A DNA stretch of 33,669 nucleotides from positions 52,545 to 86,213 of the forward strand of contig DBFD01000049.1 of the NCBI GenBank assembly GCA_002294185.1, read 5' to 3'. The DNA is from Paracoccus sp. UBA889 (GTDB lineage Bacteria > Pseudomonadota > Alphaproteobacteria > Rhodobacterales > Rhodobacteraceae). Both the position numbers and the translations under genes were made by a program. The notes below the pieces were generated by a model. The model ran no database searches. It was not told the DNA's origin and saw only the letters and a list, made by a program, of their open reading frames with translations. Of the stretch, positions 6,801 through 32,356 are shown one piece after another (the stretch's first letter is position 1; every line of letters begins with the position of its first letter).

Positions 6801-7050
6801 TCATGGCAGGTTCTTGGTCGTGACCGGTTCCCCTTGTCGGGACTCGAGGTGCTGCAATCTGCCTCTGCTTCCGGTCGGAACGATCATTCCGAAGGCGGCG
6901 TGATCCGTGACGGCCGAAAGGCTGCCGGTCGCAGCCTTTGCTTGCCTTTACGCGCAGACAAGGCCCGCGACCGCCGCGCGGTTTCGCTGTTCCTGTAACG
7001 AAATCGGAAGACAGGACGAACTGCCCGCCACGGCCAACGAAGGAGCAGTC

Positions 7051-9201
7051 GTGAAAAAAACCGCCTTTCTCGTCATCCTTGCGGTCCTTGTCGGGGCGGC
7101 GTTGTGGCTGTTGCGCGATCAGGATCTTGGCGTCGATGCCCTGCGCGGCCATCTGGCCGGGTTCACCGAATTGCGGCAATCTCGTCCGCTGGCGCTGGCG
7201 GTGGCCTTTCTTGTGGCCTATGTCGCCGTGACCGCGCTGTCCCTGCCGCTGGCGGTCTGGATGACATTGGCCGCCGGGGCGCTGTTCGGCTTCTGGCAGG
7301 GGCTGCTGCTGGTCTCTTTCGCCTCGGCCATGGGGGCGACGCTGGCCTTTCTGGTGGCGCGCTATCTGGCGCGGGACTGGGTGCGGGCGCGGCTTGGCGC
7401 GCGGGCGGACAGGATCGACAAGGGCCTGGCGCGCGACGGCGCCTTCTACCTGTTCTCGCTGCGATTGATCCCGGTGGTTCCGTTCTTCGCGGTCAATCTG
7501 CTCATGGGGCTGACCCTGATCCCGATCTGGAGCTTTTACTGGATCAGCCAGCTGGGGATGCTGGCGGGCACGGCCGTCTACGTGAATGCGGGCACCCGGC
7601 TGGCCGGGCTTGAAAGCCTGTCAGGCATCGTTTCGGCGCCGGTCCTGTTCTCTTTCGCGGCGCTGGCCGTCTTTCCCTGGTCGGCGCGGGCGGTGCTGGG
7701 GCTGGTCCGGTGGCGCCGCGTCCATGCCGGCTGGCGTCGGCCGCGGCGGTTCGATCGCAACCTGATCGTGATCGGGGCCGGATCGGCCGGGCTGGTCTCG
7801 GCCTATATCGCGGCGGCGACCAAGGCGCGTGTGACCCTGATCGAGGCGGGCAGCATGGGGGGCGATTGCCTGAACTATGGCTGCGTGCCCTCCAAGGCGC
7901 TGATCCGCAGCGCGACACTGGCCCATCAGATGCGTCATGCAAGCCGCTGGGGACTGGCCGACACGCAACCGGACATCCCGTTCCGCGCGATCATGGAACG
8001 GATCCACGAGGTGATCGCCACGATCGCCCCTCATGACAGCGTCGAGCGCTATACCGGGCTTGGCGTCGAGGTGCTGAAGGGCCATGCCCGCCTGATCGAC
8101 CCCTGGACCGTCGAGACAAGTGGCAAGAATGGCGAAACCCGGCGTCTGACCACGCGCGCCGTGATCATCGCCACCGGGGCGCGGCCTTTCCTGCCGCCGC
8201 TGCCCGGACTGGATATGGTCGAGCCGCTGACCTCGGACGATCTGTGGACCCGGCTGCGGGGGCAGGATCATGCGCCGCGCCGTCTGGTCGTCCTGGGCGG
8301 CGGCCCGATCGGCTGCGAGCTGGCACAGGCTTTCGCCCGCCTGGGATCGCAGGTGACGCAGATCGAGATGGCGCCCCGGCTGATGCTGCGCGAGGATCCC
8401 GAAGTGGCAGAGCTGGTATCATCCGCATTGCGGGCCGATGGCGTGACCGTGCTGACCGGACACAAATCCACAGGCTGCGGCAGAGACAATGGTGAGACAT
8501 GGATCGAGGTCGAAAAGGATGGCGCGACCACCCGCATTCCCTTTGACCGGATCATCGTCGCGGTGGGGCGCAGCGCCCGGCTGGAAGGGTTCGGCCTGGA
8601 CCGGCTTGGCATCGCGGCCGATCGCACGATCGAGACGAACGAATATCTGGAAACGCGGTTTCCCAACATCCTGGCGGCGGGCGACGTGGCGGGTCCGTTC
8701 CAGTTCACGCATACGGCCTCGCACCAGGCCTGGTTTGCCAGCATCAATGCCCTGTTCGGCGTGCTCAAGCGCTTCAAGGCCGATTACCGGGTGATTCCCT
8801 GGGCCACGTTTACCGACCCCGAAGTCGCCCGCGTCGGATTGTCCGAGGCCGAGGCACGGCAAAAGGGTATCGCGGTCGAGGTGACGCGCTTCGATCTGGC
8901 CGATCTGGACCGGGCCATCACCGATGGCGCGGCGCGGGGTTTCGTCAAGGTTCTGACGCCGCCGGGCAAGGATCGCATCCTGGGCGCGACCATCGTCGGC
9001 GACCATGCCGGCGATCTGATCGCGGAATTCGTGCTGGCGATGAAACACGGGCTGGGGCTGAACAGGATCCTCGGCACCATCCACATCTATCCGACCTGGG
9101 CCGAGGCCGGCAAATCCGTCGCCGGCGTCTGGCGCCGCGCCCATGTGGACGCGCGCGCGCTGGCGCTGGCAGAGCGGTTCCACCGCTGGAGGCGCGGATG
9201 A
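7051..9201 (+). CDS. TVP38/DedA-like membrane domain fused to FAD-dependent disulfide reductase
   Basis: A 716-residue fusion. Residues about 1-220 form a TVP38/TMEM64 (SNARE-associated/DedA superfamily) membrane region, with GALFGFWQGLLLVSFASAMG and the late FSLRLIPVVPFFAVNLLMG. From about residue 235 there is a class I pyridine nucleotide-disulfide oxidoreductase: FAD motif VIGAGSAGL, redox pair Cys273-Cys278 in CLNYGCVPSK, NAD(P)H motif VLGGGPIGCE, AAGDVAG, and the C-terminal catalytic His678 and Glu685 (HIYPTWAE). The closest soluble relatives are mercuric reductases and lipoamide dehydrogenases, but the MerA C-terminal vicinal cysteines are absent. GTG at 7051 is chosen because AAGGAG lies five bases before it and the longer reading adds an implausible leader. 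Its stop overlaps the next gene's ATG. Substrate is unknown; a membrane-anchored thiol/disulfide enzyme is implied. Confidence 0.87.
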   Translation: MKKTAFLVILAVLVGAALWLLRDQDLGVDALRGHLAGFTELRQSRPLALAVAFLVAYVAVTALSLPLAVWMTLAAGALFGFWQGLLLVSFASAMGATLAFLVARYLARDWVRARLGARADRIDKGLARDGAFYLFSLRLIPVVPFFAVNLLMGLTLIPIWSFYWISQLGMLAGTAVYVNAGTRLAGLESLSGIVSAPVLFSFAALAVFPWSARAVLGLVRWRRVHAGWRRPRRFDRNLIVIGAGSAGLVSAYIAAATKARVTLIEAGSMGGDCLNYGCVPSKALIRSATLAHQMRHASRWGLADTQPDIPFRAIMERIHEVIATIAPHDSVERYTGLGVEVLKGHARLIDPWTVETSGKNGETRRLTTRAVIIATGARPFLPPLPGLDMVEPLTSDDLWTRLRGQDHAPRRLVVLGGGPIGCELAQAFARLGSQVTQIEMAPRLMLREDPEVAELVSSALRADGVTVLTGHKSTGCGRDNGETWIEVEKDGATTRIPFDRIIVAVGRSARLEGFGLDRLGIAADRTIETNEYLETRFPNILAAGDVAGPFQFTHTASHQAWFASINALFGVLKRFKADYRVIPWATFTDPEVARVGLSEAEARQKGIAVEVTRFDLADLDRAITDGAARGFVKVLTPPGKDRILGATIVGDHAGDLIAEFVLAMKHGLGLNRILGTIHIYPTWAEAGKSVAGVWRRAHVDARALALAERFHRWRRG

Positions 9202-16776: not shown

Positions 16777-17784
16777 TCACGCAGCCATCCGCGTCACCTG
16801 CGCCAGTGCCGCGTCATAGACCTCGATCCCGCCTTTCGATGCGCCTTCTGACAGCGTCCGCTTCCATCCTCGCGCGCCCGGCTGGCCATGAAACAGACCC
16901 AGCATGTGGCGCGAGATCTGATGCAGCCGCCCGCCCGTGCCCAGATGCTGCGCGATCAGCGGGCGCATGGCATGGGCGACCTGTCGCGGCGTCGCGAAGG
17001 GCGGCATCTGGTCCCACAGCAGATCGGCCCCGCCCAGAATGTCCCATGGCTGGTGATAGGCCGCACGTCCGATCATCGCGCCATCCATGACGCGCAGGTG
17101 ATCGCGCGCCTGATCCAGCGAGACGACGCCGCCGTTGACCGACAGGTGCAGATGGGGAAATTCGGCCTTCATCGCATGGACCAGCGGATAATCCAGCGGC
17201 GGCACCTCGCGGTTCTCGCGCGGCGACAGACCTTGCAGCCATGCCTTGCGGGCGTGGATGGCGATGCGGGTGACGCCCGCCTCGGCCATCCTGGCCAGAA
17301 AGGCGGGCAGCACCTCGGCCGGGTTCTGGTCGTCCACGCCGATGCGGCATTTCACCGTCACCTCGACCGGGCTGACGGCGATCATCTCGGCCACGCAATC
17401 GGCCACGAGATCGGGCTGTTTCATCAGGACCGCGCCGAAACAGCCCGATTGCACGCGGTCGCTGGGGCAGCCGACATTGAGATTGATCTCGGCATAGCCC
17501 CAACCGGCGGCGATTCGCGTCGCCTGTCGCAATTCCGCCGGATCCGAGCCGCCGATCTGCAAGGCCAGCGGATGTTCGCCCGCCTCGTGGTCCAGCAGCC
17601 GCTCAGGATCGCCATGAATGATGGCCGGGGCCGTGACCATTTCGGTATAAAGCAGCACCCGGCGCGACATGATCCGGTGAAAACGGCGGCAGGCGCTGTC
17701 GGTCCAGTCCATCATCGGCGCGACCGACATGCGTGCGGCGTCGCGGATGGTCTGCTGGCTGTCCGGGTCGGGGCGCGGGGTCAT
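16777..17784 (-). CDS. dusA: tRNA dihydrouridine(20/20a) synthase DusA
   Basis: A 335-residue flavoprotein that reduces uridine 20/20a in tRNA D-loops with FMN and NADPH. Signatures seen are SVAPMMDWTD, ALQIGGSDP, INLNVGCPSDRVQSG (residues about 100-114), VKCRIGVDD, HARKAWLQGLSP and NGGV. In most DusA proteins the catalytic cysteine sits in GACLM. Here that position is Val119 (GAVLM), and a cysteine appears four residues earlier (Cys115, SGCFG). GAAGG stands before ATG 17784; the longer reading frame upstream is unlikely. Family assignment is firm; the active-site change needs care. Confidence 0.93.
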   Translation of the reverse strand: MTPRPDPDSQQTIRDAARMSVAPMMDWTDSACRRFHRIMSRRVLLYTEMVTAPAIIHGDPERLLDHEAGEHPLALQIGGSDPAELRQATRIAAGWGYAEINLNVGCPSDRVQSGCFGAVLMKQPDLVADCVAEMIAVSPVEVTVKCRIGVDDQNPAEVLPAFLARMAEAGVTRIAIHARKAWLQGLSPRENREVPPLDYPLVHAMKAEFPHLHLSVNGGVVSLDQARDHLRVMDGAMIGRAAYHQPWDILGGADLLWDQMPPFATPRQVAHAMRPLIAQHLGTGGRLHQISRHMLGLFHGQPGARGWKRTLSEGASKGGIEVYDAALAQVTRMAA

Positions 17785-17958
17785 CACTTGCCTTCGGGTA
17801 TGGTTGCGCTGCATGTAGCAACCGGCGGCGCGCTTCGCAAACCGTGCACGGCAACGCCGTTCCCGGAGGCGGCGGGCGACGGATCGTCGGGCCTGTGGCC
17901 TTGCAGGGACATGGATCAAATTCCTGCCCCGCCGACGAGCGGCGGGCACCACGCGGCA

Positions 17959-17981
17959 CGGCCGGCACTGGATCCCGGCCG
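17959..17981 (-). terminator. Weak hairpin after the giant-protein operon
   Basis: A seven-bp GC stem (17959-17965 with 17975-17981) with a nine-base loop directly follows the stop of the PLD-like gene in the leftward direction. There is no T-tract, so it is only a possible 3' end. Confidence 0.3.
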
Positions 17982-17985
17982 GCGT

Positions 17986-20900
17986 TCAGGCCTCGCTCAG
18001 GAATGCTGCCAGTCCAAGTCCGGCGGGTGCGCCGTTCGTGCCGTCGGGATCGGCCACGTCGTCATCCTGCGGCAGCACCGCATTGTCCTGCGGGCCGTGC
18101 CACAAGGGCTGGATCAGCCCCGCGCCGTTCTGTGCAAGCAGGTCGCGGATCAGCGAGAAGGCCGAGGCCGGTCGCGCCAGTCGCAGGAATTCCGCCACCG
18201 GCGAACCGTTGGCATCCATCCGCGCCACGCCCAGTCGCGCGGCCATGGCGGCCACGCGCTGGCCCTGCACCTTGACGCTGTAGCCGCGCGCGATGTCGCG
18301 GTCGAACGAGGCCACCGCGGCGCTGCCGTCGAAGGTCATGCCGCGGCGGCGGATATGGCTGGCGCCGGTCAGCGACCAGATGTCGTCCACGATGACGATG
18401 GTGCTGCGGATCAGTGCGTCCCGGCCGGGAAAACCCTTCGGATGGAAGGCCGCCACCCGGCCCGGCGCGGCTGCGGACAGCGTGTCATAGGCCTCCTTGC
18501 GCTGCGCGAAGGCGCGCCGGGCGAAGGGAGCGGGAATCAGGTCTCCGTCACGCGGGGTGACGATGATCGCCTTCAGATTGGGCCGCGCCGACATGCGCTG
18601 CGCCAGAAGCGCGATCAGGTCGATTTCCTGGGGTGCGGGTGTGCCCTGGGGCCGCGCCGTGCGGGCAAGTCCGGGGGTTTCGATATAGACCAGTTCCTCG
18701 GCCTCCAGAATGGCGCGGGCCAGCGACCACAGCGCATCCCGCGCCCCGTCGCGGGACAGGAAATATTCGCGCCGCACCTCGTTGATCAGGCGATTCTCGT
18801 TGGCCACGGTGATGCTGCCCGAAGGCGATGGAATGCCAAGCGCCCCGGCGATGTCGTCGAGAAGCTGGTCGAAGGTGATCGGCGCGCCGCTGTCCAGCGG
18901 GTTGCCCGCCGGCAGCAGCGACAGTTCCGGCGTCTCGGCGATGGCCGCCACGGTTTGCAGCAGCACCCCGGCCGAGGTTCCCGCCGCGGGCGGATTTGCG
19001 GGATCGGGGGCGGGCGGGTTCATGTTGTTGCCGCCCGACATGACGATCCAGCCCGGCGAGGTTCCCGCCGCGGCGCCGCCCGGCAGAGGCAGCATCGGCT
19101 GCACCCGCCTGACCGCATGGCGGGCCAGGTCATAGCCAAGAGCGCCCGTCACCCGGACGCCGGAGACATGCGTATCGGGTCCGGCCGGATTGCCGGGATT
19201 GCCCTCGCGCATCAGCGCGCAGCGCGTCTCGCGCGTCCAGCGGGCGCCCGACAGCACCCCGTCCCAGTCCAGCCCGGCCTGCAATTGCACATTACCGATC
19301 CCCGAGACGGTGATCCCCTCCAGCCGGCCCATCGTGGCGTGGCGCGGGCCCTCGCGCGGCTCGGTCTCGTTGCCCAGGGCGCGGACGATGTCGATGGGAT
19401 TCGTCAGGCCGCCGGCCGGATTGGTGGTCCGGGTCATCCCGAAGATCGGAGCGGGGCAGACGGACTTGATCGCGGGCGGCAGCGCGGCCATGGGATCAGG
19501 CGTGCCAAAGGGGTCGGGCGGCAGCGCGGCCGGGCCTGCCGCGATATCCAGCCGGCGGTTGGCGAACAGCCGCCGGCTGCCCCGGCGCGGCGTCACCACC
19601 AGATCGAAGACCAGCACCGCCGGGCTGGGTCTGGGATCGCCCGGCGCAAGCGCCATCGGATTGCCGACCAGGATCCGTGTGGGCTGGCCCCCGGCGGCGA
19701 TGGCCGTGCCGCCATCGCCGCGCAGGAAGGATGGCGCCTCGCCGATCGAATCGATCAGCTGAAAGCGTTGCGCATAGATGCGGACCGACGCCCCGTCGGG
19801 AACCAGATCGGCGGGCAGGCTGACGACGACATCCGTGCCTGCGGTCCAGGCGGCACTTGCCCCGGCCAGCGGGTTGGCATTGCCGGTGGCAAAGCCTGCC
19901 GCCGTGTCGGGCGCGGGAAAGGCTGGCCAGTGGCCGGGGCCTCCGACAGCCGGCGGCAGGCCGACCCCGTCCGCGATCAGCGGCGCCACGGCAAAGACCA
20001 GCGGACTGCCCGGCGCGCCGCCGGTGCGGGTGATGATGCGGCCGGATTCGGCCAGCAGGTCGGGACCGTCGGTCAGGTAATCCACCGTGATCGCGTCGCG
20101 CACCTGTGGTTGCAGATCGGCGGGCATCTTGCCGTCATCGGCGGGCACGCCGCTGACGGTTGCATTGCTGCGATTGCCGCGCAGGTGCCAGTCCAGATCG
20201 GTGGCGAAGGCGCGCAGGAATTGCCGGGGCAGCGTGACGCCGGCAGGCAGCGTCGGCAGCGCCAGCGGCCCCGCGCCCATCACCCCGCCCGTGGCCCAGC
20301 CCAGTCGCAGCCGCGCCGCGGCCGCCGTGCCGGTCCCGGTCAGCGTGTCGCCGGGGGCAGGCTCGATCAATCCGTTGCCGTCGGGCGTCCCGGCGGGATT
20401 GCCGCCGTTGCGCCCTTCGACGCCCGGCCCGCCGGGGATCGCGATATAGGGCTTGCCATGAAGATCGCAGATCTGAACCTGGATGCCCGAGGCAAGGCCC
20501 GCGATGCTGGCCACGCCACCCGCCCCGTTCCGCGCCGCCCCGTTCGAGGCATCCAGCGCCGGAAACGCCGTCATCAGGTCGTCGAACAGGGCAGCCACCG
20601 CGACCGGATCGACGATCAGCCCGCGATGGTCGTGAAAGCTGTAGGGCTCGGTTCGGGGCAGTGTATCGCCCGGTTCCCAGGTCTGGGGCGACCGGTCCGG
20701 GGCGGGCACCGCGCCGGTGAACACCATCGTCTCGGGGATGATGCGGTGATGCGGCTGGCCGGGCTGGCCATAGCGGCCCTGGGCCAGCGCCTCGAGCCGC
20801 TGGGCGGATTGCGGATGCAGCCGGAAGACCGCGACCGGCCCGATGATCGGTGCGCCGGACACATCGCGAAAGGCCGCGCCATTGTCGAGATATTCCAGAA

Positions 20901-21084
20901 CCCCGAACCAGGGCGCCCGCGCCGAACCCGAGGGCGTCAGCCGCAGCCCTGCCGCGTCGAAGCCGGGATTGGCCGTACCCCAGGCAGCCGCCAGGCGCGG
21001 CGCGGTCAGGCCAAGCGCATCGAGCCCGCTATCCTGCAACGATTGTGCGGCCGCCGCCGGCGTCAATGTGAAGACGGTCACCAT
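17986..21084 (-). CDS. Large protein with C-terminal PLD-like domain
   Basis: A 1,032-residue protein, third in the giant-protein operon. Residues about 790-930 resemble a phospholipase D half-domain: EELVYIETPGL, an Arg-rich helix with LKAIIVTPRDGD, then FHPKG (His881 and Lys883 as the HxK), IVIVDDIWSLTGASHIRRRG and DGSAAVASFD. Between HxK and VDD there is an extra stretch of about ten residues compared with classic HxKxxxxD. No second complete HKD was found, although LHGKP near residue 205 is a possible decayed first half. The middle (about 480-580) is beta-rich and may be Ig-like. No signal peptide or membrane helix is visible. GGAAAGGA is eight bases before ATG 21084. Function unknown; nuclease, lipase or a scaffold are all possible. 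Confidence 0.7.
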   Translation of the reverse strand: MVTVFTLTPAAAAQSLQDSGLDALGLTAPRLAAAWGTANPGFDAAGLRLTPSGSARAPWFGVLEYLDNGAAFRDVSGAPIIGPVAVFRLHPQSAQRLEALAQGRYGQPGQPHHRIIPETMVFTGAVPAPDRSPQTWEPGDTLPRTEPYSFHDHRGLIVDPVAVAALFDDLMTAFPALDASNGAARNGAGGVASIAGLASGIQVQICDLHGKPYIAIPGGPGVEGRNGGNPAGTPDGNGLIEPAPGDTLTGTGTAAAARLRLGWATGGVMGAGPLALPTLPAGVTLPRQFLRAFATDLDWHLRGNRSNATVSGVPADDGKMPADLQPQVRDAITVDYLTDGPDLLAESGRIITRTGGAPGSPLVFAVAPLIADGVGLPPAVGGPGHWPAFPAPDTAAGFATGNANPLAGASAAWTAGTDVVVSLPADLVPDGASVRIYAQRFQLIDSIGEAPSFLRGDGGTAIAAGGQPTRILVGNPMALAPGDPRPSPAVLVFDLVVTPRRGSRRLFANRRLDIAAGPAALPPDPFGTPDPMAALPPAIKSVCPAPIFGMTRTTNPAGGLTNPIDIVRALGNETEPREGPRHATMGRLEGITVSGIGNVQLQAGLDWDGVLSGARWTRETRCALMREGNPGNPAGPDTHVSGVRVTGALGYDLARHAVRRVQPMLPLPGGAAAGTSPGWIVMSGGNNMNPPAPDPANPPAAGTSAGVLLQTVAAIAETPELSLLPAGNPLDSGAPITFDQLLDDIAGALGIPSPSGSITVANENRLINEVRREYFLSRDGARDALWSLARAILEAEELVYIETPGLARTARPQGTPAPQEIDLIALLAQRMSARPNLKAIIVTPRDGDLIPAPFARRAFAQRKEAYDTLSAAAPGRVAAFHPKGFPGRDALIRSTIVIVDDIWSLTGASHIRRRGMTFDGSAAVASFDRDIARGYSVKVQGQRVAAMAARLGVARMDANGSPVAEFLRLARPASAFSLIRDLLAQNGAGLIQPLWHGPQDNAVLPQDDDVADPDGTNGAPAGLGLAAFLSEA

Positions 21085-21109
21085 CGCTGCGGTCCTTTCC
21101 CGATCGTCA

Positions 21110-24100
21110 TCATCCCCTGACCCTCTTGCTGTCGCTGGCCCCGTCCGGGCCGGTGATCGTGGCTGAAACCGCCCGCAGGGCCGATTTCGCCATGATCGAG
21201 ATCCGCAGGCTGTCGCCCACCCGCTGGCGCGCGGCGGCGAAGGTTTCGTCCGGCGCCGTGACCGGGATCGAGGCAAGCGCCGCGTCATAGATCCATTTGC
21301 CGTCCGACAGCGTGAACTGTGTCCGTCCGCGGATGGTCAGGCCGCCGCCGGGCAGGGGAATTCCCCGGCCCGGCAGGCCTCCGGGCACGCCCCGACGCGG
21401 AAAGCGGGTCGGCGGGACGATCGTTGCCGGTGCCAGCTCGATCCGCAGGCGCCAGGGCTGGCCGTTGATCATGTCGTCGCGTGTATTCGCGAGGGTGAAG
21501 GTAAAGACCTTGCCGCGCCCGGCGATCGAGAAACTGTCGATCTCGGACATCTGTGGCGGCGGCAGAAGCACGCCGGGCCCGATCGCGGCGACGCGTTCGC
21601 TTGCCCGGCCCAGCGGGTCGATCAGGCGGATCGTCAGGCTGGCCGAATGGGTCACGTCGGCGCGCCGCAAAAGCAGCGAATATTGCCCCGGCGCGCTGCG
21701 CCACAGGCCGGAATCCGGCGCGGCGGGCGCGGCAGCGGCGATTTCGGCAAGGGCGATCCGCCGGCGGATGACCGGTGCGGGAAGGCCCTGTTCCAGCGCC
21801 TCGACCTCGAGGATATGGGCGCCCAGCGGCGTCTCGGCCACGGGCGCATCGGTTGCGAAGCTCGCCAGCACATCGCCCGGACCGCCGCCCGGCCAGCTCA
21901 GCGCAAGCGCCGAAAGCGGCGGCGGTCCGGCGGGCGGGATCACCACCGGCACCGCGGGCGAGGCCAGCGACCGGCCGCCCAGCACGCCCCTTTGCGGCAG
22001 GCCGTCGGCCAGGGCCACGGCGCGATACCAGACATGTTTCCACGATCCGCCCGGCGCGTCCGTCCCCGTCGCCACGTCGATCCAGCCATCGGCGGCGGGC
22101 GCGGGCGGCGTCGTGGACCAGCCCCCGCCCGAGGCCGAGATCTCGGCCACCGGCAATCCCATGCTGTCCAGCGCGCGGGCGGCGTCGGCGACGCGGGTGC
22201 GATACAGTTTCAGATGCCGTGGCCGCGCGCCCGCATCGGCCCGCGTCTCGACCCGGATGCGGGCGGCAAAGCCCGCGCCCTGTTCGATCCGGCGCACCTC
22301 GATCCGGGGCGGCGCGGGTTCGGCCACCTTGGGCGCGGCATAGACGATCATCGCGCTGGAGGTCATGGGCCAGGGCGCCTCGGTGCCGCCGGCGCTGACG
22401 GGCAGCACGATCCAGGCATGGATCGCCTGCGAGCCGCGCGGGATCGCGACGTCCAGACTGGTCGCGGTCAGAAGCGTGTCGTTGACACGGGTGAAGGCGT
22501 TGCGGTCGGGATCGGCATCGAAGGCGGCCTGCATCGCCACCAGCCGCTGGGACAGAGTGGCGTCGGGGGCGGCGCGCGGTTGCCCGGTCCGATCCAGCAG
22601 GGTGAATTCGTTCGAGGTATAGACGACGTAACCGGCGGCGCCGGGCAGGGCGGCCCAGGACAGCCGCGCGTGCCCCTGGCCCCCCGCATCGGGCAGGCTG
22701 GTCAGCGGAACGATCGGCATGATGTTGGTCAATCGTGCACGCGGATCCGAAGCATAGGCCAGTTTGGGCGGCGACCAGGCGCCGGTTCGCATGGGCGCCA
22801 GCCGTTCCTGCAATCGCGCCGACAGCGCCAGCCCGATATGGGGCGTGGCCGCGTAATCCAGCGAGAAGCCCGGCACGATCAGGCGATAGCGCCGGCTGCT
22901 GCCCTGCGCGGGGCCCGGCGCGACGGTGGCGTCGCCCTGCGAGTTCAGCGCCAGGATGCTGCCGCCCGCGACACTGGGCACGTCGCCTGCGAAGCTGATC
23001 GTCACAATCCTGGTCGCCCCGGCCAGATCGGTCTGGACCGCGCCGGGCATTCCGGCGGGCGGATCGTCGTGCCGCGTGGCCGAGGCGAAAAGCCGACCGC
23101 GGAACGCGACCGAGGCCGGGCGCCGCGCGCGCCAGTCCAGCACGATCTCGACCCGCAATTCGCCCGGGCAGACGGTGGCCGGCGGACCGGGATCGGTGGG
23201 GACCAGATTGGCATCGACGATCTGGACGGCATCCGGATCGGGCTGGCTGGAATCGAATGCGGTGACGACCCAGGGCGACCAGATACCGAAGATGTTCTGG
23301 GTGGCGATGCCATAGCGCGCGCTGACACTGCCCGGATCGTTGGGGATCGGATAGAAGCTGTCGCTGGCGCTTTGCCGCGTGGGTTCGGGATCCTGCGGAT
23401 TGCGGGCATCGCCGATCGGCAGATGGCCGGGCGCGGTCGCCCGGCGTTCCATCAGCGGATGGGCGGGCTGTCCGGGCTGCGCCAGATCGGCCCGGCCGGC
23501 GGCAAAGCTGGCCACGCGCGACAGATTGTCCAGCGGCAGCCGTTCCCAGGACAGCCGCGTCGCCGCGCTCCAGGGTCCGTCTGGCGCGGCGGGCTGGTGG
23601 TGGCCCAGGAAATCCAGGGCCAGATCGGCGGGGGCGGGTGGCGGAAGGACCAGGCGCGGTCGCGGGATCAGGGCCGCGAATTCGACCTCGCGCCCGGCCC
23701 GCATCCCCTCGCCGCGCCACAGGCCGGTGACCATGAAATCCCAGTCGCTGACGCCCCTGTCATCAAAGAACGACATCGCGCCCAGCGTGATGCCGGGAAT
23801 GTCCTCGTAAAGATAGCCGGTTCCGAACCCCAGCGTGACGGCCTGCAACGGATCGGTCGAAACCGTCATCTGCAGCAATGTCAGCGGCGCGATGGTGGCG
23901 CGGCCGGGATCGCCGCTCATCTGCTGGCCCGAGGGATTTTCGGGCGGGTTGATCTGGAAATCGCGGGTGAACCCGGCCTGGTCGGCGGGGGGCAGCCGCA
24001 TCGCCTCGTGCAGCATGGGCAAAAGCTGGGTGTCGGCATCCGCGATCAGATCCTTGGGCGACGGCAGCGTCCAGGCGGGCGCGATCTCGCCCGTGGGAAA

Positions 24101-24793
24101 GGTCTGGTGCCAGCCGAAGGGGTTGATGCCGCGCGCATATCGCTGGGCTGCGGCGTCAGGCGCCGGCACCTCGGCGCCCACCAGGCCCTGCTTGACGCCG
24201 TGGTTCTGGTCGGCGAGATCGGACCAGCCGCCTTCATCGACCGGCAGCCCGACCGTTTCGACCAACTCCCATCCCCCGATCTTGTCGGCCGCCGATTGCG
24301 GCAGGCCCGCGAAACCCTGCACGCTGCCAGTGCCCAGGATCAGGACCGCGGTGACGTAGGCCGCCTGAAAGCGCATCACGGTCGCGCCGTTCGCGCCCAG
24401 ATTATAGGGCAGGATCGCGAGGATGTTCTCGAACCCGATGCCGTCGGCGAAAAAGACCACATTGCCCGCCGCGCCCGAAGATCCGGCGCGCAGGTCCAGC
24501 GACAGCGACACCATCGGCTCGGGCATGACATGGATCTGTCCCAGCGGCGGCAGGGTCAGGCGTTCGGGTTCGATCGCGGTTTCCTCGACCGGGAAGGCCT
24601 GGCGGCGCCAGACCTTGAACGGTTCGACCGGCATCCCGATACGCGGATTGACCTGCCAGCGCAGGAAGACCAGGCGCGGCGCGTCGCTGAGATCGGTGGG
24701 CGGGCGCGGAAAGCCCTTGAACAGAGCGCGCGTGGTGATCAGCGCGCCCTGCGCCTTGAATGCGGTCGGATCGAAGATGCGCGGCGGTGCCAT
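21110..24793 (-). CDS. Large multi-module protein, fibronectin-III-like
   Basis: A 1,227-residue protein of unrecognised family, second in the giant-protein operon. It starts MAPPRIFDPTAFKAQG, one base after the stop of the first gene, so translation is probably coupled. Several stretches look like fibronectin type III or related beta-sandwich modules: YGIATQNIFGIWSPWVV (about 491-510), ARLSWAALPGAAGYVVYTS (about 705-725), HLKLYRTR (about 855), WKHVWYRAVALADG (about 920) and IRLIDPLGRAS (about 1060). The first 450 residues are less regular and contain proline-rich, aspartate-rich loops. No signal peptide, membrane helix or enzyme motif was seen. Such modules usually mediate protein or surface contacts, so a structural or adhesive role is a guess. 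The family may be unknown. Confidence 0.68.
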   Translation of the reverse strand: MAPPRIFDPTAFKAQGALITTRALFKGFPRPPTDLSDAPRLVFLRWQVNPRIGMPVEPFKVWRRQAFPVEETAIEPERLTLPPLGQIHVMPEPMVSLSLDLRAGSSGAAGNVVFFADGIGFENILAILPYNLGANGATVMRFQAAYVTAVLILGTGSVQGFAGLPQSAADKIGGWELVETVGLPVDEGGWSDLADQNHGVKQGLVGAEVPAPDAAAQRYARGINPFGWHQTFPTGEIAPAWTLPSPKDLIADADTQLLPMLHEAMRLPPADQAGFTRDFQINPPENPSGQQMSGDPGRATIAPLTLLQMTVSTDPLQAVTLGFGTGYLYEDIPGITLGAMSFFDDRGVSDWDFMVTGLWRGEGMRAGREVEFAALIPRPRLVLPPPAPADLALDFLGHHQPAAPDGPWSAATRLSWERLPLDNLSRVASFAAGRADLAQPGQPAHPLMERRATAPGHLPIGDARNPQDPEPTRQSASDSFYPIPNDPGSVSARYGIATQNIFGIWSPWVVTAFDSSQPDPDAVQIVDANLVPTDPGPPATVCPGELRVEIVLDWRARRPASVAFRGRLFASATRHDDPPAGMPGAVQTDLAGATRIVTISFAGDVPSVAGGSILALNSQGDATVAPGPAQGSSRRYRLIVPGFSLDYAATPHIGLALSARLQERLAPMRTGAWSPPKLAYASDPRARLTNIMPIVPLTSLPDAGGQGHARLSWAALPGAAGYVVYTSNEFTLLDRTGQPRAAPDATLSQRLVAMQAAFDADPDRNAFTRVNDTLLTATSLDVAIPRGSQAIHAWIVLPVSAGGTEAPWPMTSSAMIVYAAPKVAEPAPPRIEVRRIEQGAGFAARIRVETRADAGARPRHLKLYRTRVADAARALDSMGLPVAEISASGGGWSTTPPAPAADGWIDVATGTDAPGGSWKHVWYRAVALADGLPQRGVLGGRSLASPAVPVVIPPAGPPPLSALALSWPGGGPGDVLASFATDAPVAETPLGAHILEVEALEQGLPAPVIRRRIALAEIAAAAPAAPDSGLWRSAPGQYSLLLRRADVTHSASLTIRLIDPLGRASERVAAIGPGVLLPPPQMSEIDSFSIAGRGKVFTFTLANTRDDMINGQPWRLRIELAPATIVPPTRFPRRGVPGGLPGRGIPLPGGGLTIRGRTQFTLSDGKWIYDAALASIPVTAPDETFAAARQRVGDSLRISIMAKSALRAVSATITGPDGASDSKRVRG

Positions 24794-24794
24794 G

Positions 24795-27700
24795 TCAGTC
24801 CTCTTCCTCCCATGGCGCGCGGGCCAGCGTCTCGGCCAGGATGGGATAGCGCGCATCGCTGGCCCCGGCGCCGTCCAGATAGGGCAGCGGGAAGGCGCGG
24901 CGGACCAGATCGGCCTGCAGGATCTTGCCGCGCGAGCCGGGTTTCAGGGTCATCAGCAGACGTTGCGCGCCGGGAGCGTGGATCAGCCGGTCGATGATCG
25001 CGTCGCTGCCCGGCCCCTCGGCCACGTTCAGCCATTCCTGCGCGACAAGTTCCAGCCGCGTGACCGGTGTTTCGTCATCGCTCGCGATCTCTCGTGGCAG
25101 CATCCTTGTGCGGCGCAGGGGTTCGGATGCGTCGATCAGCACGGCGGCAGGGGCGGGCTGAGCGGCGGGGCCGGCCTGTTCCCAGAAGATCACGATGCGC
25201 GGGCGATCCGGCACCGGCATCGGTTCCAGCCCGGCGGCGATCATGGCGCTGTCGAGTTCCGGACCCTCGGGCTGACGGGCGGCGAATTGCACGCCGATCG
25301 CCTGCATCGCGCCCGGCGCCACGGCGCGATGTTCGGTGCGGGTGGCGGCGAATTGCAGCGCGAAGTCCTCGGTCGAGGCAAAAGCACCGGTCGAGAAGGG
25401 CTTGCGCAGCACGCGCTGGCCGGTGGTGTTCGGCGCGGCGCCGATATCGACGGCCTCGATATCGAGGACGTAATCGGTATGGGGGTCCATCGGGATCGGG
25501 ATCTCCAGCATGGAATGGCGGGCGCGCGTCTCATCGACGGCGATACAGGGTCCGGCCTCTTTCAGAAGTTCGGTCAGCACTGCCTCGAAGGGCGACAGAT
25601 GAGTGGCCGAGACAGGCTCCAGCGTGGCGTCGCCGATGGGCAGGGGGTGCTGCACGCCCGGCTCGTCAACCTGGCGGAACGATGCCGCCTTCAGGCGTGC
25701 CCGCAATTCCTTGCCATAGGCGGCATAAAGCTGATCCACATCGTTGGTATTGAAGACCAGCTTGATCGCCTCGTGGCCGAAGACATGCTGTTCCTTTTCG
25801 TCGGGCAGGGTGCACAGCATCCACGGATCCAGCCGCGCCGGCGCGCTTGCATCGGTGCGGAACCAGAAGGTTTCGGTCTGGTCCGTCTCGGTCTGCACCT
25901 GCCCTTCCGAATTGCGGACCTGCACGCCGGTGACGGTCGTCACCTTGTAGGTCTTGCCCGGCAGCATCAGCGCGACACTGGCCGAATCCGGTCCGAGGAA
26001 GCTTTCGACAACGCCGCGGTTGCGGGTGATCTGGGTTTCGTCCCAGTCGCTGCGGCTGAGTTCGGACATGCGGGTCAACTCGATCCCGGCGATGTAATAG
26101 GGCCGGCCAAGCTGTTCCATCGCCGTCGCGGTCTTGAGGTCGGAATAAAGAACGCCGATGCGGACCGCCTGCGTTCCGGCGGGCGGCTTCAGCGTCACCA
26201 GAACCGGCACCCGCCCCAGGATCGTGTTGGCATAGAGAACGGCGTGGAAGACATCCTCGATCCACGGGCCGGCCATGTCGATCCAGCGCGGTGGCAGCAA
26301 GGTGCCGGGCATCAGCATGTCGGACAGGAGCACGGGACGTTCGTCCAGAACGGCGCCGTCGTCGTCAAGGTAATGGATCGTCAGATTGCGACCGCGCCCG
26401 GATTCCTTGTTCAGCAGCCGTTCATTGGCCCACATCAGGATCACGCCCTCGGCGATCTCGCCTGTGGCCAGGTCGATCACGTCCGACAGGGGACCGTGCT
26501 TGTGGCCGATCAGATCCAGTTCGGCGGCGATGCTTTCGGATTTGCTGCGATCGCCGAAGACGACCGGCTGACCGGTATCCCACAGCGGCGAAGCCAGCAC
26601 CCGACCGTCGCAATTCGGCCCGTCTGGATTGGATCCGCCATCCCCGTTATCCGTCAGGCTGGCGGCCAGCGAGGCGCGATGGACCGCGCTGCCCTGGGCA
26701 AGGTTCTGGACCACCTGGGACAGGGTCAGCCGCGGCACGTCCAGCCGGTCGTTGCGGCGCTTGCCGGTGCTGCCCTCGGTCGCCGCGTTCAGTCGGGCGG
26801 TCTCGGCCGCGAGCCGGTCCGGGAAGCGGCCCGGCGCCGCGCCCGTGCCGAGGCTGGTAGCCCGGCTTGCGGTTTCGGCCAGCGGCGGCACGAGGATGCG
26901 GTCGCGGCCGGCGCGGATCAGGTCCGCCAGCGGTCCGGTCAGCATCGCATCGGCAAGGCGGCGATTGCCGCCGGCGCCGGTATTTCCGTCCTGCCGGGGC
27001 AGGCAGCGGACCTTGCCGCCCTGCACGATGGCAGGGACGATGCCGCGCGCGCGGTCCAGATCGCGATCGCCGGTGCGCCAGGTCTCGCGAACCTCGAGAA
27101 TGTCGTCGGCGGGCTCGGACCGCTCGGTCCCGCCCGGGTCGGGCCAGGCCACGCCCTTCAGCCGCCACCCGCTTTCCGAAGGTCCAAGCGGTTCATCGTT
27201 GAAGGTCCACAGCACGGGCGCGGCCGGCGCGGCGTCGTTGCAGATCGTGCCCCAGCGTTCGAGGATGGACTGTTCCTGGAATTCGGTGCGCTCCAGCGCC
27301 TTGGGCGCGGGGTTCGGCGTCCAGTTCAGCAGCGCCAGCTGCGCCGCCAGATTGGCGTCGGCGGGCGCGTTCTGGGTCCACCAGACCGAAGGCGCCGACC
27401 CGCCGCCGATGGCCGGGCCGCCATCGGCGGTTTCCAGCGTCACCGTCTTCAGATCGTAGCGATAGGAAAAATCGCCGCGCTTGACAAAGCCGTCGGCAGG
27501 CGCGCCGGGCGAGCCCAGAACATCTTCCCCGAAGATCGTCAGCGCGTCGTCGCGAGGCGTCGCCGACATGACCATGACCGGAATGGAATCGATCGGCACC
27601 ACCGGCATCGCATCGGCCGCGGGCTGGGCGGTCGCCGCCACCGCATCACCGATCTTGGCGTCGATCTTGCGATCCGTGCCGGTGCCCATGGCCAGCGCCG

Positions 27701-30700
27701 GCGAACGGCCCACCAGAGAGGCCGCCGTGACCAGTCTGGGCGCCGGCGGCAGGATCTGGTTCTGCTCGCCCAGATGGAAATTGACGCAGCCCTTGAGGGT
27801 GAAGAAGAACAGGTCCAGCTCGCCGCAGACCTCGCCGTCGATGCGCGCGATCTCGGTCTTGACCTCGACGCCGCCGATCACGTCGATGCGCTGGCCGATC
27901 TGCACGGCCAGACCGGCCGAGGCCGACAGCGAGATGATGAACAGCTTCAATTCGCCGCGCAGATACAGCAGGCCGCCGACATAGAACGGCTCGAATCCCA
28001 GCACCGCGTTAAAGCCTGCGGTCACCCGCAGATAGAGGTTGATCGAGGTGTTGCCCCAGACGATCGAGACTTCCAGCCCGGTTGCCAGGGCGGTTCCCTG
28101 CACCTGCGGCAAGGCGGGCAAATTCGACCAGGTGGGTTTGTAGGACGGGATGCCGTGCCCCGACACCATCATGTAGCCGGCGCCGTCGAAGACCTCGAAG
28201 ATCCGGATCCGGATCGGTCCGGGCATCGGACGGCCCTGCAGATCGCTGCCGGCGAATGTGCCCAGATAGACGTGCCAGTCGCCGCCGGACTTGAGGTTGA
28301 AGAAGGCCTCGATGGGGATCTTGATCTCGACGATGGGCTTGATCGAGAAGTCGATGGACAGCCCGATGGTCAGCGTGCCCCGCCCGAAATCCAGGTCGAT
28401 CACGCACATGAAGGTGCCTTCGGCGTTCTTGTCCTTCAATTCCGGCAGCACCGCCAGAAGCTTGGCCTTGACCATCAGCATGATGCGCGGTCCGGGCAGT
28501 TCCAGCAGGAACATGCCCTTGACGTTGAAGATCACCGGCGAGCCCATCGTGCCCAGCGTGATCCCGGCGCCAAAGGCCCAGCGGCCGACCTGCGGCTTCC
28601 AGGCCTGAAGGTTCGTGGGATCGCCCTGCGCCCGGTCCTTCAGCCATGTCAGCGCCGGCGTCAGCGAGGTGATGCCGTCCTCGTCCCGCCCGTAATGCAT
28701 CGCGAAAAGGCCGAGGAATCCGTAGATGCCGAAGCCCGATTGCGCCAGCGGGATCGCGACGGGCAACTCCACCTCCAGCGCGATGGCGACGCCGGTGGCG
28801 GGGCCGCCCTGGGCCGCGGGGATCTGGGCCACCGCGACCTGTGCTGCGATGCGCAGCTTGATCGGGATCAGCGAGACGTCGATGCCGCCCTTGATCTCCA
28901 TCGCGCCGCCGGAATTGTTCATCTCCATATAGCCGCGGCCTTCCAGGACGCCGGGAACCTTGAGCCCGGCGGCGAAGGCTGTCAGTTCGGGCGGTCCCAG
29001 CGGGTCCAGCGGCAGGCGGACGCGGGCGCGTTCGACGGTGATCACGCCCAGATCGACGGCAAAGCCCAGGTCGATCTCGAAGTTCAGCGGGTTGGTCCGG
29101 GCGATGCGCGCGCCCAGCACCTGCAGGATCTTGCCCAGCGGATCGGGCAGGCGAATCTGGCCCGGCCCCGAGACGTCGATGGTATAGCCCTTGGACTGAT
29201 CGAAGACCGGCCGCAATTCCCAGCCGGCGGTCGATCCCGGAGGCTGGCCGAATTTCAGCCCGATGGCCTTGTAGCGCACCGCCAGCGGCGTATCGCGCGG
29301 GATTTCCAGCAGCAGGAAACCGCCCAGCTTGATCCGGGCCGAAATCGCCGTTTCCACGTCGAACAGGATCACGGTTTCCCACCGGTCGCCGACGCGGCGG
29401 AACTTGCCCTCGCCGCCGAACAGCACGACACGTTCGACATTCAGAAGCGGCGTCCCGTCGATGCGGATCTCGGCCAGCGCCGAGGGCAGGGCGATCACGG
29501 CGGCCGACAGGATGATGGGCGCGACGCCGCCATCGGCGGGATTGGCGGGCGCGATTTCGGCCAGAAGCGGCGTGAAGATCGTCGTCATGCCAAGGATGTT
29601 GCGCGCGGTATTGGGGGCCTCAAGCGCCTGACCCTGCAACTGACCGGTCATCACCAGCCCGTCGCGGTCGTTGGGATCGGCCCCGATATACAGCTTGATC
29701 TCGTCGGTCTGGCTGGCCGGATCGGTCTGGTAGAGAAACAGGAAATCGGTGATCCCGTCGGCGGGATTGTTGCCCAGCCCGCGAATGTCGGGGATGGTGT
29801 TGCCGCCCGAGGTGTCCATCTGCGATTCCAGCGCGGTTTCGAAATCGACCTGGCCGGACAATTCGACGGCGACGAACTGATCCTGCACGATACGGATCTT
29901 CAGCCGTGCCTGGCGGAACCATGGCGGTGGCGGCGGATTGTCGGGCGGCACATCGCGCGCCGGCGGCACCGCGGGGGGCGGCTCGGGCGCGGCGGGGCGT
30001 CTCGCCTCGCCCTCGATCACCGGACCGGGCAGGGTCACGGAGAAATCGCGGATATTGGCCTTCCACCATTGCTCGCGCGGGCTGCCATGGGTTTTCCAGC
30101 CCGTGGTCCAGGCGCCTGCCGGCTGGGCGCTGGCGGCGACGGGCACGGGCAGGAAATTGACGGTAAAGCCCGACAGCGCCGGATCGTTGCGGATCAGCGC
30201 ATCCAGACCCTGCGCGCGGCGCTGCGACAGCAGGTAATTGTACTTCGCCTTCTGATCGTCGTTCTCGTAGCTTGCCGTGCCCTCGATGGTGACGGTCTTC
30301 GGGGTGATCCGCGCCAGAACCTGCCGCCACTGGGCCAGGAACTGCCGTGCCGGCGGCTTCCAGGGCGCGGTCGCGGCCGGATCGGTCGCCTGATCGGCCG
30401 AGGTGTTCAGCGGATTGATCGAGAATGTCACCACGTCATCGACCGGCGGGTGATCAAAGCGGAAATAGCCGTCGATCGAGGTGATCGTCTGGCCGGGCAG
30501 GGCGGCGCGCACCGTCTTAGTCTCGCCCCCCGCCAGAGCCAGGCTCAGCGTGGACGAGGCACCGGCGGGCGCGCCGTCGATCTGCCACTGGGTCGCGGCG
30601 TTCGGCGCCACGCCATCGACGCCGATCACCACCCCGCTGCCGCCGTCCGACACCAGGCGCAGCGGCGGCGCGTCCTGCGGTTGCCCGTCGAGCGTGATCG

Positions 30701-32051
30701 AGGTGGTGCGCAGACTGGCGGCCAGATCGGGCAGCGCGCCGGGCGCAGGCTCGACCGAGATCGCCTGCCGCAGCATGACGCGGATGGACAACACCTTCTG
30801 CTTGACCGGGGACGAGGTGTCGCGCGCCGTGATCGTGACCGTCTTGGCGGCCGCGGTCGCCGTCATCGAATGCAGCATTCCGGCGTGATCGGCACCGTCG
30901 AAATTCGCGTTGACGGTAAAGGGCGCACGCCCTCCGGTGACATCGACGACCATGCGGGTCGTTGCGGGCAGGCGGGCCTCGGCGGTGGTGTCGGTCAGAC
31001 GGGTGATGCCGATGGCGCGGCCCTCGGGGTCGAAGAACCGGGCCGACAGGGCCAGATCTCCCGACCCCTGATTGATCACCGCCACATCGAAATCGCCGGT
31101 GATGCCCGAGGATTGGCCCAGACCGATCAGCAGGTTTTCGACCCCGGCATTGACGGCGAAATCCTCGGCCCCGTTGGGCGCAAAGAAGATCCGCACCTCG
31201 GGCAGGAAGAGCCCGGTCCAGCTTTCGTCAAAGCCGAACTGGTCCAGAACCTCGGGCGGGGTATAGCCGTCGGCCAGATCCAGAAAGGCCGATCGGAAGG
31301 CGAAGCCCACAACGCGGCCGCTGCCGATGAAGGCATAGGCGGGCTGCATCCGGATCATCTCGACCGCCGCCAGGTCGCCGGGATCGTCCAGCCCCGCCAC
31401 ACCCAGCGACACCAGCGCCACGTCCAGAACCGCGTTGTTGCCCGAACCCTGCGACAGGCGCAGCTTCACCCTTGGCAGATGAAAGACGACATCGGGGCGC
31501 GAATCGTCGGGAACCAGAAGCCCGTTGGCCTCCATCTTCGCCGGTTTCAGGAAAGGCGGACGGATCTCGATTCCCGACAGGACCATGTCCAGCGTGAAGC
31601 CGGTTCCGGGATAATCCGAGGGCGGCGCATCGGTCGGAATCGCATCCAGGGCCGAAAGCAGGTTGCGCACCGGCTGAAAGGCGGTGGCGCCACCGGGAAC
31701 CGAGGCGACGCCCGCCGCCACGATCTGCCCTGCGGCGCGCGGAACGGTCAGCGCGAACTCGACCCGCGCATCGGTGATGTCAAGCCAGGGCTCGCGACGG
31801 TCGGGCTGGCTGCGGGGATGGCCTTCGGTATTCGCCGCACCGGCCCGCAAGGTTCCGGTCACGGGATCGTAGCTGGGCGGGTCGACATTGCCGGAAAACC
31901 GCGCAATCCCGCGGATTACCGTGCCATCATCGCTGGCCGCCGCCTCGTAGCTTTCCACATAGATCACCGACAGGGCGGCGTGCCACGCCGTCGATTCACC
32001 CTTCAGAAGATAGGGGCGGATGAGGTCGGCAAGAGCCAGGTCGAACTGCAT
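24795..32051 (-). CDS. Giant protein with OmpA-like segment and DUF6603-like core
   Basis: A 2,418-residue protein if the ATG at 32051 is used; the open frame extends to a TTG at 32132 (2,445 residues), but this overlaps the predicted -10 box, so the ATG is preferred despite no clear ribosome site. The N-terminal 500 residues are beta-rich. About residues 540-650 resemble an OmpA C-terminal domain (KTVTIEGTASYEND, then NYLLSQRRAQGLDALI), although the usual TD aspartate is lost. A proline-rich hinge (about 683-711) follows. Residues about 880-1430 form a long amphipathic, glycine-rich beta region with GFGIYGFLGLFAMHYGR, LLELPGPRIMLMV and YMMVSGHG, loosely recalling DUF6603. The last 900 residues have no recognised family. 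There is no signal peptide. First gene of a three-gene operon. Function unknown. Confidence 0.7.
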   Translation of the reverse strand: MQFDLALADLIRPYLLKGESTAWHAALSVIYVESYEAAASDDGTVIRGIARFSGNVDPPSYDPVTGTLRAGAANTEGHPRSQPDRREPWLDITDARVEFALTVPRAAGQIVAAGVASVPGGATAFQPVRNLLSALDAIPTDAPPSDYPGTGFTLDMVLSGIEIRPPFLKPAKMEANGLLVPDDSRPDVVFHLPRVKLRLSQGSGNNAVLDVALVSLGVAGLDDPGDLAAVEMIRMQPAYAFIGSGRVVGFAFRSAFLDLADGYTPPEVLDQFGFDESWTGLFLPEVRIFFAPNGAEDFAVNAGVENLLIGLGQSSGITGDFDVAVINQGSGDLALSARFFDPEGRAIGITRLTDTTAEARLPATTRMVVDVTGGRAPFTVNANFDGADHAGMLHSMTATAAAKTVTITARDTSSPVKQKVLSIRVMLRQAISVEPAPGALPDLAASLRTTSITLDGQPQDAPPLRLVSDGGSGVVIGVDGVAPNAATQWQIDGAPAGASSTLSLALAGGETKTVRAALPGQTITSIDGYFRFDHPPVDDVVTFSINPLNTSADQATDPAATAPWKPPARQFLAQWRQVLARITPKTVTIEGTASYENDDQKAKYNYLLSQRRAQGLDALIRNDPALSGFTVNFLPVPVAASAQPAGAWTTGWKTHGSPREQWWKANIRDFSVTLPGPVIEGEARRPAAPEPPPAVPPARDVPPDNPPPPPWFRQARLKIRIVQDQFVAVELSGQVDFETALESQMDTSGGNTIPDIRGLGNNPADGITDFLFLYQTDPASQTDEIKLYIGADPNDRDGLVMTGQLQGQALEAPNTARNILGMTTIFTPLLAEIAPANPADGGVAPIILSAAVIALPSALAEIRIDGTPLLNVERVVLFGGEGKFRRVGDRWETVILFDVETAISARIKLGGFLLLEIPRDTPLAVRYKAIGLKFGQPPGSTAGWELRPVFDQSKGYTIDVSGPGQIRLPDPLGKILQVLGARIARTNPLNFEIDLGFAVDLGVITVERARVRLPLDPLGPPELTAFAAGLKVPGVLEGRGYMEMNNSGGAMEIKGGIDVSLIPIKLRIAAQVAVAQIPAAQGGPATGVAIALEVELPVAIPLAQSGFGIYGFLGLFAMHYGRDEDGITSLTPALTWLKDRAQGDPTNLQAWKPQVGRWAFGAGITLGTMGSPVIFNVKGMFLLELPGPRIMLMVKAKLLAVLPELKDKNAEGTFMCVIDLDFGRGTLTIGLSIDFSIKPIVEIKIPIEAFFNLKSGGDWHVYLGTFAGSDLQGRPMPGPIRIRIFEVFDGAGYMMVSGHGIPSYKPTWSNLPALPQVQGTALATGLEVSIVWGNTSINLYLRVTAGFNAVLGFEPFYVGGLLYLRGELKLFIISLSASAGLAVQIGQRIDVIGGVEVKTEIARIDGEVCGELDLFFFTLKGCVNFHLGEQNQILPPAPRLVTAASLVGRSPALAMGTGTDRKIDAKIGDAVAATAQPAADAMPVVPIDSIPVMVMSATPRDDALTIFGEDVLGSPGAPADGFVKRGDFSYRYDLKTVTLETADGGPAIGGGSAPSVWWTQNAPADANLAAQLALLNWTPNPAPKALERTEFQEQSILERWGTICNDAAPAAPVLWTFNDEPLGPSESGWRLKGVAWPDPGGTERSEPADDILEVRETWRTGDRDLDRARGIVPAIVQGGKVRCLPRQDGNTGAGGNRRLADAMLTGPLADLIRAGRDRILVPPLAETASRATSLGTGAAPGRFPDRLAAETARLNAATEGSTGKRRNDRLDVPRLTLSQVVQNLAQGSAVHRASLAASLTDNGDGGSNPDGPNCDGRVLASPLWDTGQPVVFGDRSKSESIAAELDLIGHKHGPLSDVIDLATGEIAEGVILMWANERLLNKESGRGRNLTIHYLDDDGAVLDERPVLLSDMLMPGTLLPPRWIDMAGPWIEDVFHAVLYANTILGRVPVLVTLKPPAGTQAVRIGVLYSDLKTATAMEQLGRPYYIAGIELTRMSELSRSDWDETQITRNRGVVESFLGPDSASVALMLPGKTYKVTTVTGVQVRNSEGQVQTETDQTETFWFRTDASAPARLDPWMLCTLPDEKEQHVFGHEAIKLVFNTNDVDQLYAAYGKELRARLKAASFRQVDEPGVQHPLPIGDATLEPVSATHLSPFEAVLTELLKEAGPCIAVDETRARHSMLEIPIPMDPHTDYVLDIEAVDIGAAPNTTGQRVLRKPFSTGAFASTEDFALQFAATRTEHRAVAPGAMQAIGVQFAARQPEGPELDSAMIAAGLEPMPVPDRPRIVIFWEQAGPAAQPAPAAVLIDASEPLRRTRMLPREIASDDETPVTRLELVAQEWLNVAEGPGSDAIIDRLIHAPGAQRLLMTLKPGSRGKILQADLVRRAFPLPYLDGAGASDARYPILAETLARAPWEEED

Positions 32052-32356
32052 CGAAAGCTGCCGTGCTGAAAGACATGCCCCGGAGGGCACCACGAAGAAC
32101 GAAAAACGCGGATTGGTCACCCGATAAATCAATATTAATACGACAAAATATTTCAGTCAAATTATTTTGCTTGTGCTTAAATAACCTAAACGTTTTTATT
32201 GCAGGAGTGTTCTGGAGGAATATTTGATATAGGTTTATCATATCATTGAAGTTCAATCGTAAAAAACGGACCCCGGGATCAAAGTCGCTGGTGGCAGGCT
32301 GCGGACGGGCCGGTTCGGGTCGATGATATCGGGCGCAGGCGCATGACATTCTGCTT
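32052..32356. other. Long AT-rich intergenic stretch
   Basis: No credible gene lies between the giant-protein start and the DUF1045 stop. About 32125-32275 is strikingly AT-rich against the GC-rich window and holds the promoter described separately. An open frame through it on the minus strand (to 32406) has no ribosome site and no coding character. The rest is GC-rich with the hairpins listed separately. Confidence 0.7.
32132..32160 (-). promoter_or_regulatory. Sigma-70-like promoter of the giant-protein operon
   Basis: On the minus strand, TTGACT (32155-32160) matches the -35 consensus in five of six bases, and TAATAT (32132-32137) lies after a 17-base spacer as a -10 element (four of six). 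Transcription would begin near 32125, leaving a leader of about 74 bases before the ATG at 32051. The site lies in the AT-rich island; it is predicted from pattern only. Confidence 0.5.

Follow-up and report, generated by a model that had tools for sequence, protein, structure and literature searches.

DUF6603 (PF20248) is a Pfam domain of unknown function, the canonical members of which are giant proteins adjoining other large proteins without Pfam match. The phospholipase D (PLD) superfamily, including human PLD1/2 and Pseudomonas aeruginosa PldA, has a two-lobed fold; long antiparallel strands, many alternating in hydropathy, occur in apolipoprotein B100 and in LptD and porin sheets; and the bridge-like lipid transfer proteins (RBG superfamily) are described in PMC7613979 as giant proteins with long strands bearing a hydrophobic side. 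Each of these systems resembles part of an operon of three very large leftward genes, designated A, B and C (Table 1), found in a stretch of 33,669 nucleotides from Paracoccus sp. UBA889 (contig DBFD01000049.1), hereafter the window. The core of A aligns with the canonical DUF6603 giants by profile, whereas window A fails the Pfam model and two large partner families of the canonical members are unrelated by profile to B or C. C is predicted to share the two-lobed PLD fold but lacks the HxKx4D motif and has about 290 extra N-terminal residues. The predicted A core recalls the strands of apolipoprotein B100 and LptD/porin sheets, although at low structural scores, large root-mean-square deviation (rmsd) and low identity among the matches listed. 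It shares giant size and long strands with the RBG proteins, but its model (pTM 0.47) shows no clear period matching the five-strand-plus-loop repeat of that superfamily, loops falling after about 7 strands, then after 6 to 9 and then after 6. Because the window proteins failed a defining test for each of DUF6603, PLD enzymes and OmpA, the operon was not filed under a known family. Our favoured reading, at a probability of about 0.3, is an accessory operon that moves horizontally and whose products assemble into a single lipid- or membrane-handling complex.

Recurrence and spread of the operon

The locus set consisted of 37 loci from one contig scan with the A-core alignment and four plasmid loci; three of these 41 are cut inside A (L016, L017, L030) and were left out, so that counts refer to the other 38. 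B lies directly downstream of A in 35/38 loci, and a weak B relative (E 1.3e-4, probability 54) lies upstream of A, with one gene between, in three (L005, L006, L045), where it entered the count through a profile built from itself. A C homologue was found in 25 loci, including two from Mycetohabitans (E 2e-9 and 8e-10) and L029, which the end of its contig truncates. Several taxa recur, and the loci are therefore not independent: Cellulomonas contributes five, Tateyamaria, Arthrobacter and Nannocystis three each, and Marinobacter, Rhizobium tropici and Mycetohabitans two each. The sequence-only reading had proposed a three-gene operon fitting no named system, a proposal against which rare co-occurrence of the genes elsewhere would speak; these counts indicate frequent co-occurrence, and the absence of a matching system was borne out in the libraries searched. 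No family in NCBIfam, PHROGs or PADLOC matched A, B or C at E ≤ 1, and none of the three reached a Pfam or NCBIfam cut-off. A literature search for DUF6603 and PF20248 returned no paper, most subscription papers being out of reach, and a broader search returned nothing on the operon. Phage origin was rejected, as PHROGs gave nothing at E ≤ 1 and a tblastn search of 50,697 phage records with A was likewise empty; when the A core was compared with viral models by Foldseek, two matches reached E ≤ 0.001, with TM-scores of at most 0.12, and one of them is annotated as a putative tail fibre protein.

The gene in the C position varies between a degenerate PLD, a PLD with one intact HKD motif, a right-handed β-helix, and none found. 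A, B and C occur together on a Rhizobium tropici megaplasmid (tblastn in plasmids), while two Mycetohabitans plasmids (L005, 8201-21222; L006, 8228-20796) have the order B-C-A, with a PLD-like gene carrying one intact HKD motif. In Arthrobacter oryzae (L045), a 776-aa protein with a right-handed β-helix match (6301-8631) occupies the C position, flanked by the B relative on one side and on the other by an A relative of 3,338 aa that has lectin-like matches. Plasmid pAMI4 of Paracoccus aminophilus (L004, 430-11440) has A and B, the latter a clear homologue by profile (E 6.9e-22), and C was not detected there; pAMI4 is listed among plasmids readily removed from their host in the part of PMC3925955 available, which does not discuss its A and B genes. 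A and B recur together, and the gene in the C position varies or was not found; the working core is therefore probably A-B, with C as a specialised subunit. No neighbour cluster other than A, B or C occurred in more than four loci within flanks of about 7 kb upstream and mostly less than 1 kb downstream of C, and a downstream partner could have been missed because the downstream flanks are short. Split A genes at L026 (7223-14390) and L041 (7127-14407) and a frame-shifted C at L043 (17632-21224) may reflect sequencing error or decay. Since a coding unit of some 14 kb recurs in several phyla, the operon probably pays for itself, and the family of giant-protein operons so defined can be tested.

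A is present in six phyla. The tree of 38 A cores comprised Pseudomonadota (16), Actinomycetota (9), Acidobacteriota (6), Myxococcota (3), Gemmatimonadota (1) and Nitrospirota (1), with two rows, one of them window A, in no phylum group. The phyla are partly interleaved, with 11 label changes against a minimum of five; shuffled labels gave a mean of 18, and kin therefore cluster in the tree. Such interleaving is no proof of transfer, and the placement of some long branches is unsure. Window A pairs with Thauera (support 100/99), with Marinobacter next; core identities are 84% and 83%, and whole-protein identities 76% and 73%, respectively. Thauera and Marinobacter belong to classes other than that of the window host. 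Among 149 genomes of the order, one further A match was found, a 28% relative in the same-genus genome G088, whereas the housekeeping Dus protein is 68-81% identical in 15/15 same-genus genomes; A of the window, Thauera and Marinobacter would thus appear about as alike as Dus is within one genus. Horizontal transfer is suggested because the A core is 84% identical to that of Thauera but A is 28% identical to the same-genus relative, and the operon is probably mobile. The window subfamily is rare, being found in 2/149 genomes of the order and in 1/398 genomes of the phylum, the window's own (with up to two candidates scored per listed genome); the Pfam DUF6603 model matches 8/299 and 9/296 genomes of two phyla. 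Among the 13 same-genus genomes with both Dus and DUF1045, none shows the two genes flanking a cleanly vacant site: they are separated by at least 39 kb or are on different contigs.

Sequence kinship and predicted folds

Window A did not match PF20248 at E ≤ 10, and no match to this model was found in its genome, whereas 8/20 aligned A proteins matched the model at E ≤ 0.1 (best 2e-11). Profile-profile alignment (hhalign) of the A core with the canonical DUF6603 giants gave E 1.4e-5 and probability 80, and whole A a probability of 40; the DUF6603-related part (about residues 1030-1372) falls inside the core. This distant kinship, like the degenerate PLD fold of C, was missed by the sequence-only reading. 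The canonical giants themselves (L054-L061) measure 1,513-3,390 aa, and all ten neighbouring open reading frames (ORFs) scanned from three of these eight loci lacked a Pfam match at E 0.01; the giants and their large neighbours are possibly a second unexplored giant-protein system. Their partners were also considered as forms of B or C and were rejected, no profile similarity being detected.

The OmpA-like segment that had been claimed for A held at the level of the family but not for the window protein alone, which scored 11.9 bits (E 0.29) against the 27.2-bit cut-off of PF00691. That model was matched by 3/20 aligned A proteins at E ≤ 0.1, and of the 27 PDB sequences matched by the A family profile at E ≤ 1, 26 cover the OmpA-like profile positions 547-681, 5u1h being the best at E 1.5e-5; a photosystem I chain is listed among these 26. 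The A core is predicted to consist of long antiparallel strands, partly amphipathic, and hydropathy alternation in 28 chosen strands gave a combined z of 7.7 against shuffles. Foldseek matches listed for the core include porin-like, usher-like, lipoprotein and other membrane proteins, at 4 to 11% sequence identity; VPS13-, TamB- and AsmA-type structures were not among them, which excludes nothing.

The model of C has a predicted two-lobed PLD fold, which confirmed the PLD-like domain that had been noticed in the sequence, and it resembles the PLD fold of P. aeruginosa PldA. PldA is a type VI effector. No HxKx4D motif occurs in window C or in any of 23 aligned C sequences, and the motif is absent from 23/25 readable C sequences. 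Window C matched no Pfam family at E ≤ 1, and its profile found no relative in PDB by sequence, the one match having E 0.77. The same-genus genome G020 encodes a PLD-like protein of 554 aa (L002, 1177-2841) that resembles C weakly and has two HKD motifs, both intact.

For B, the fibronectin-III-like modules proposed earlier did not hold up, as no Pfam FN3 match was found in window B or in 16 aligned homologues. Window B gave a single sub-threshold match at Pfam E ≤ 1 (YegS_C, E 0.031), and across B and these homologues one member showed a weak YegS_C match and nothing else from Pfam.

Possible functions of the operon

The anatomy of the genes is established from sequence; the lipid step in the favoured reading was drawn from the predicted sheet of A together with the predicted fold of C. 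A would form a large sheet of long antiparallel strands, many predicted to have one hydrophobic side, and that side would hold lipid or sit in a membrane, working perhaps like the β-belt of apolipoprotein B, the groove of a bridge-like lipid transfer protein or an LptD-type sheet. C would recognise phospholipid headgroups or membranes without cutting, and B would join A and C; storage, transfer, envelope repair and attack are candidate purposes of the complex. If this is true, bacteria possess a new type of machine for carrying lipid or bridging membranes, and the operon helps to explain part of the DUF6603 group. A more specific form is doubtful: a new class of bacterial lipid machine, transmitted horizontally, in which a giant β-sheet protein made in the cytosol carries or wraps lipid, a dead PLD senses lipid or membrane, an adaptor takes part and the third subunit can be swapped, the whole working as a bacterial analogue of apolipoprotein B or of the bridge-like lipid transfer proteins. 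Once a structure is solved, the operon could yet be grouped with known lipid-transfer proteins.

Several observations weigh against a lipid- or membrane-handling complex. The A model is moderate (mean pLDDT 73.3, with the pTM given above), 6 of the 28 chosen strands alternate no more than their own shuffles, and a control on C strands gave a combined z of 0.7, with little power as it covered only nine short strands. Query-normalised Foldseek TM-scores were at most 0.20 among the 50 A-core matches listed, porin alignments had an rmsd of about 10 to 14 Å, and the structural matches are weak evidence because any long strand meander could yield them. Most are outer-membrane proteins, yet a secretion route is not visible. 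C was not found in 13/38 loci (L004, L022, L023, L031, L032, L034-L038, L040, L044, L045), and no recurring lipid-metabolism neighbour was seen within the flanks covered, which are short downstream and in which neighbours were not named singly. Lectin-like stretches in divergent A proteins fit a surface role: PF06439, which we take to be a concanavalin-like family, matched the A relative of L045 at E 6.7e-9 (whole protein above the cut-off, no single stretch passing) and the Mycetohabitans A proteins at 5.5e-5 and 6.1e-5, and a tectonin model matched at 2.2e-4, the last three below the cut-off.

These lectin-like matches, with the OmpA-like segment of A and the variable gene in the C position, favour a surface or extracellular complex, acting as an adhesin or a scaffold for glycan binding, with an unrecognised route of export and with C as an exchangeable module, and we regard this alternative as tentatively possible. 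However, the Pfam scan gave no lectin match in window A, no neighbour of any kind recurs in more than four loci within the flanks covered, and none of the three proteins has a strongly hydrophobic N-terminus (best 12-residue Kyte-Doolittle means 1.35, 0.92 and 1.55 for A, B and C), in keeping with the earlier claim of no signal peptides as far as this crude, uncontrolled measure goes, no signal-peptide program having been used. The same N-termini are compatible with a lipid-free giant particle of the cytoplasm, a scaffold or a store, whose A sheet would pack its hydrophobic side against protein. In Actinomycetota and in outer-membrane phyla alike the A-B pair is found, and strand alternation alone shows no lipid contact; but alternating strands are numerous and long in one region of A, membrane proteins and lipoproteins are among the structural matches of A, and such a scaffold is a rather doubtful explanation.

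A membrane-inserting weapon against other cells, with A as a β-sheet pore that B and C target or chaperone, would suit the porin- and usher-like matches of the A core, the PLD fold found also in PldA and the patchy distribution. We consider it unlikely, as visible catalytic domains are lacking, no toxin-family or PADLOC match was obtained, and no recurring small neighbour that might be an immunity gene was found in the flanks covered. The injected structure suggested by the sequence-only reading gained no positive evidence, and cargo of a type VI secretion or contractile-injection system was not supported, since neither TssK nor a sheath gene was detected in the window genome (G000, a 97% complete draft); TssK is present in 9/23 host genomes tested and a sheath gene in 6/23. 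The sizes of A, B and C recall a Tc-type toxin complex, a candidate likewise set aside, no such family being among the Pfam or NCBIfam matches. Rarity and patchiness, as in many defence operons, and relatives on plasmids could also point to an anti-phage or anti-plasmid conflict system, but this is distinctly improbable: A, B and C match no nuclease, ATPase or protease family, the single enzyme-like fold (C) has no catalytic motif, and PADLOC gave no match for the three proteins, other window genes not having been searched for defence families. Finally, antisense ORFs of similar length might suggest that the genes are chance ORFs in GC-rich DNA, a view refuted to near certainty by full-length relatives in several phyla and by the leftward frames, in which differences from four relatives peak at third codon positions in 12/12 gene comparisons (for A against Thauera, 0.18, 0.13 and 0.40 at codon positions 1, 2 and 3). 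The leftward strand is the coding strand of A, B and C, and as the third-position evidence favours it, the antisense ORFs are shadows of GC-rich coding.

Operon layout and neighbouring genes

The number, sizes, order, strand and spacing of the giant genes were as first described, with one base between A and B and 25 between B and C, and the gene starts chosen are consistent with where homology begins. The end initially assigned to the operon, 32132, is the first possible TTG, and homology instead fits the ATG at the start of A given in Table 1. The AT-rich promoter region proposed upstream was supported by a promoter-like site with 9/12 matches (two overlapping hits against 0.4 expected). AGGA-type sequences, read by eye, precede B and C, and none is visible before A.

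Table 1. Coordinates of the operon, its parts and the overlapping antisense frames in the window
Feature	Position	Strand	Remarks
Gene A	32051-24795	-	2,418 aa; giant, β-rich core, distant DUF6603 relative
Gene B	24793-21110	-	1,227 aa; partner without recognised domain, directly after A in 35/38 related loci
Gene C	21084-17986	-	1,032 aa; phospholipase-D-like predicted fold without HKD motif
AT-rich region 5' of gene A	32052-32260	-	includes promoter-like site 32160-32132
OmpA-like segment of A	30210-30356	-	about residues 566-614; sub-threshold Pfam match, family profile supports
Core of A	27768-29444	-	residues 870-1428; 23 predicted strands of at least 10 residues
Part of C aligned with phospholipase D structures	18061-20199	-	residues 296-1008
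Degenerate second HKD-type site of C	18328-18411	-	residues 892-919; DD and RRG kept, H and K replaced
Antisense ORF over gene A	24423-32069	+	2,548 aa
Antisense ORF over gene B	21647-24997	+	1,116 aa
Antisense ORF over gene C	16888-21120	+	1,410 aa

The window neighbours scanned with Pfam belong to four ordinary families, Dus, TauE, DctM and DUF1045. A further window ORF (6907-9201, +, 764 aa) may encode a fusion of a DedA/TVP38-type membrane domain with a disulfide oxidoreductase, as judged by eye.

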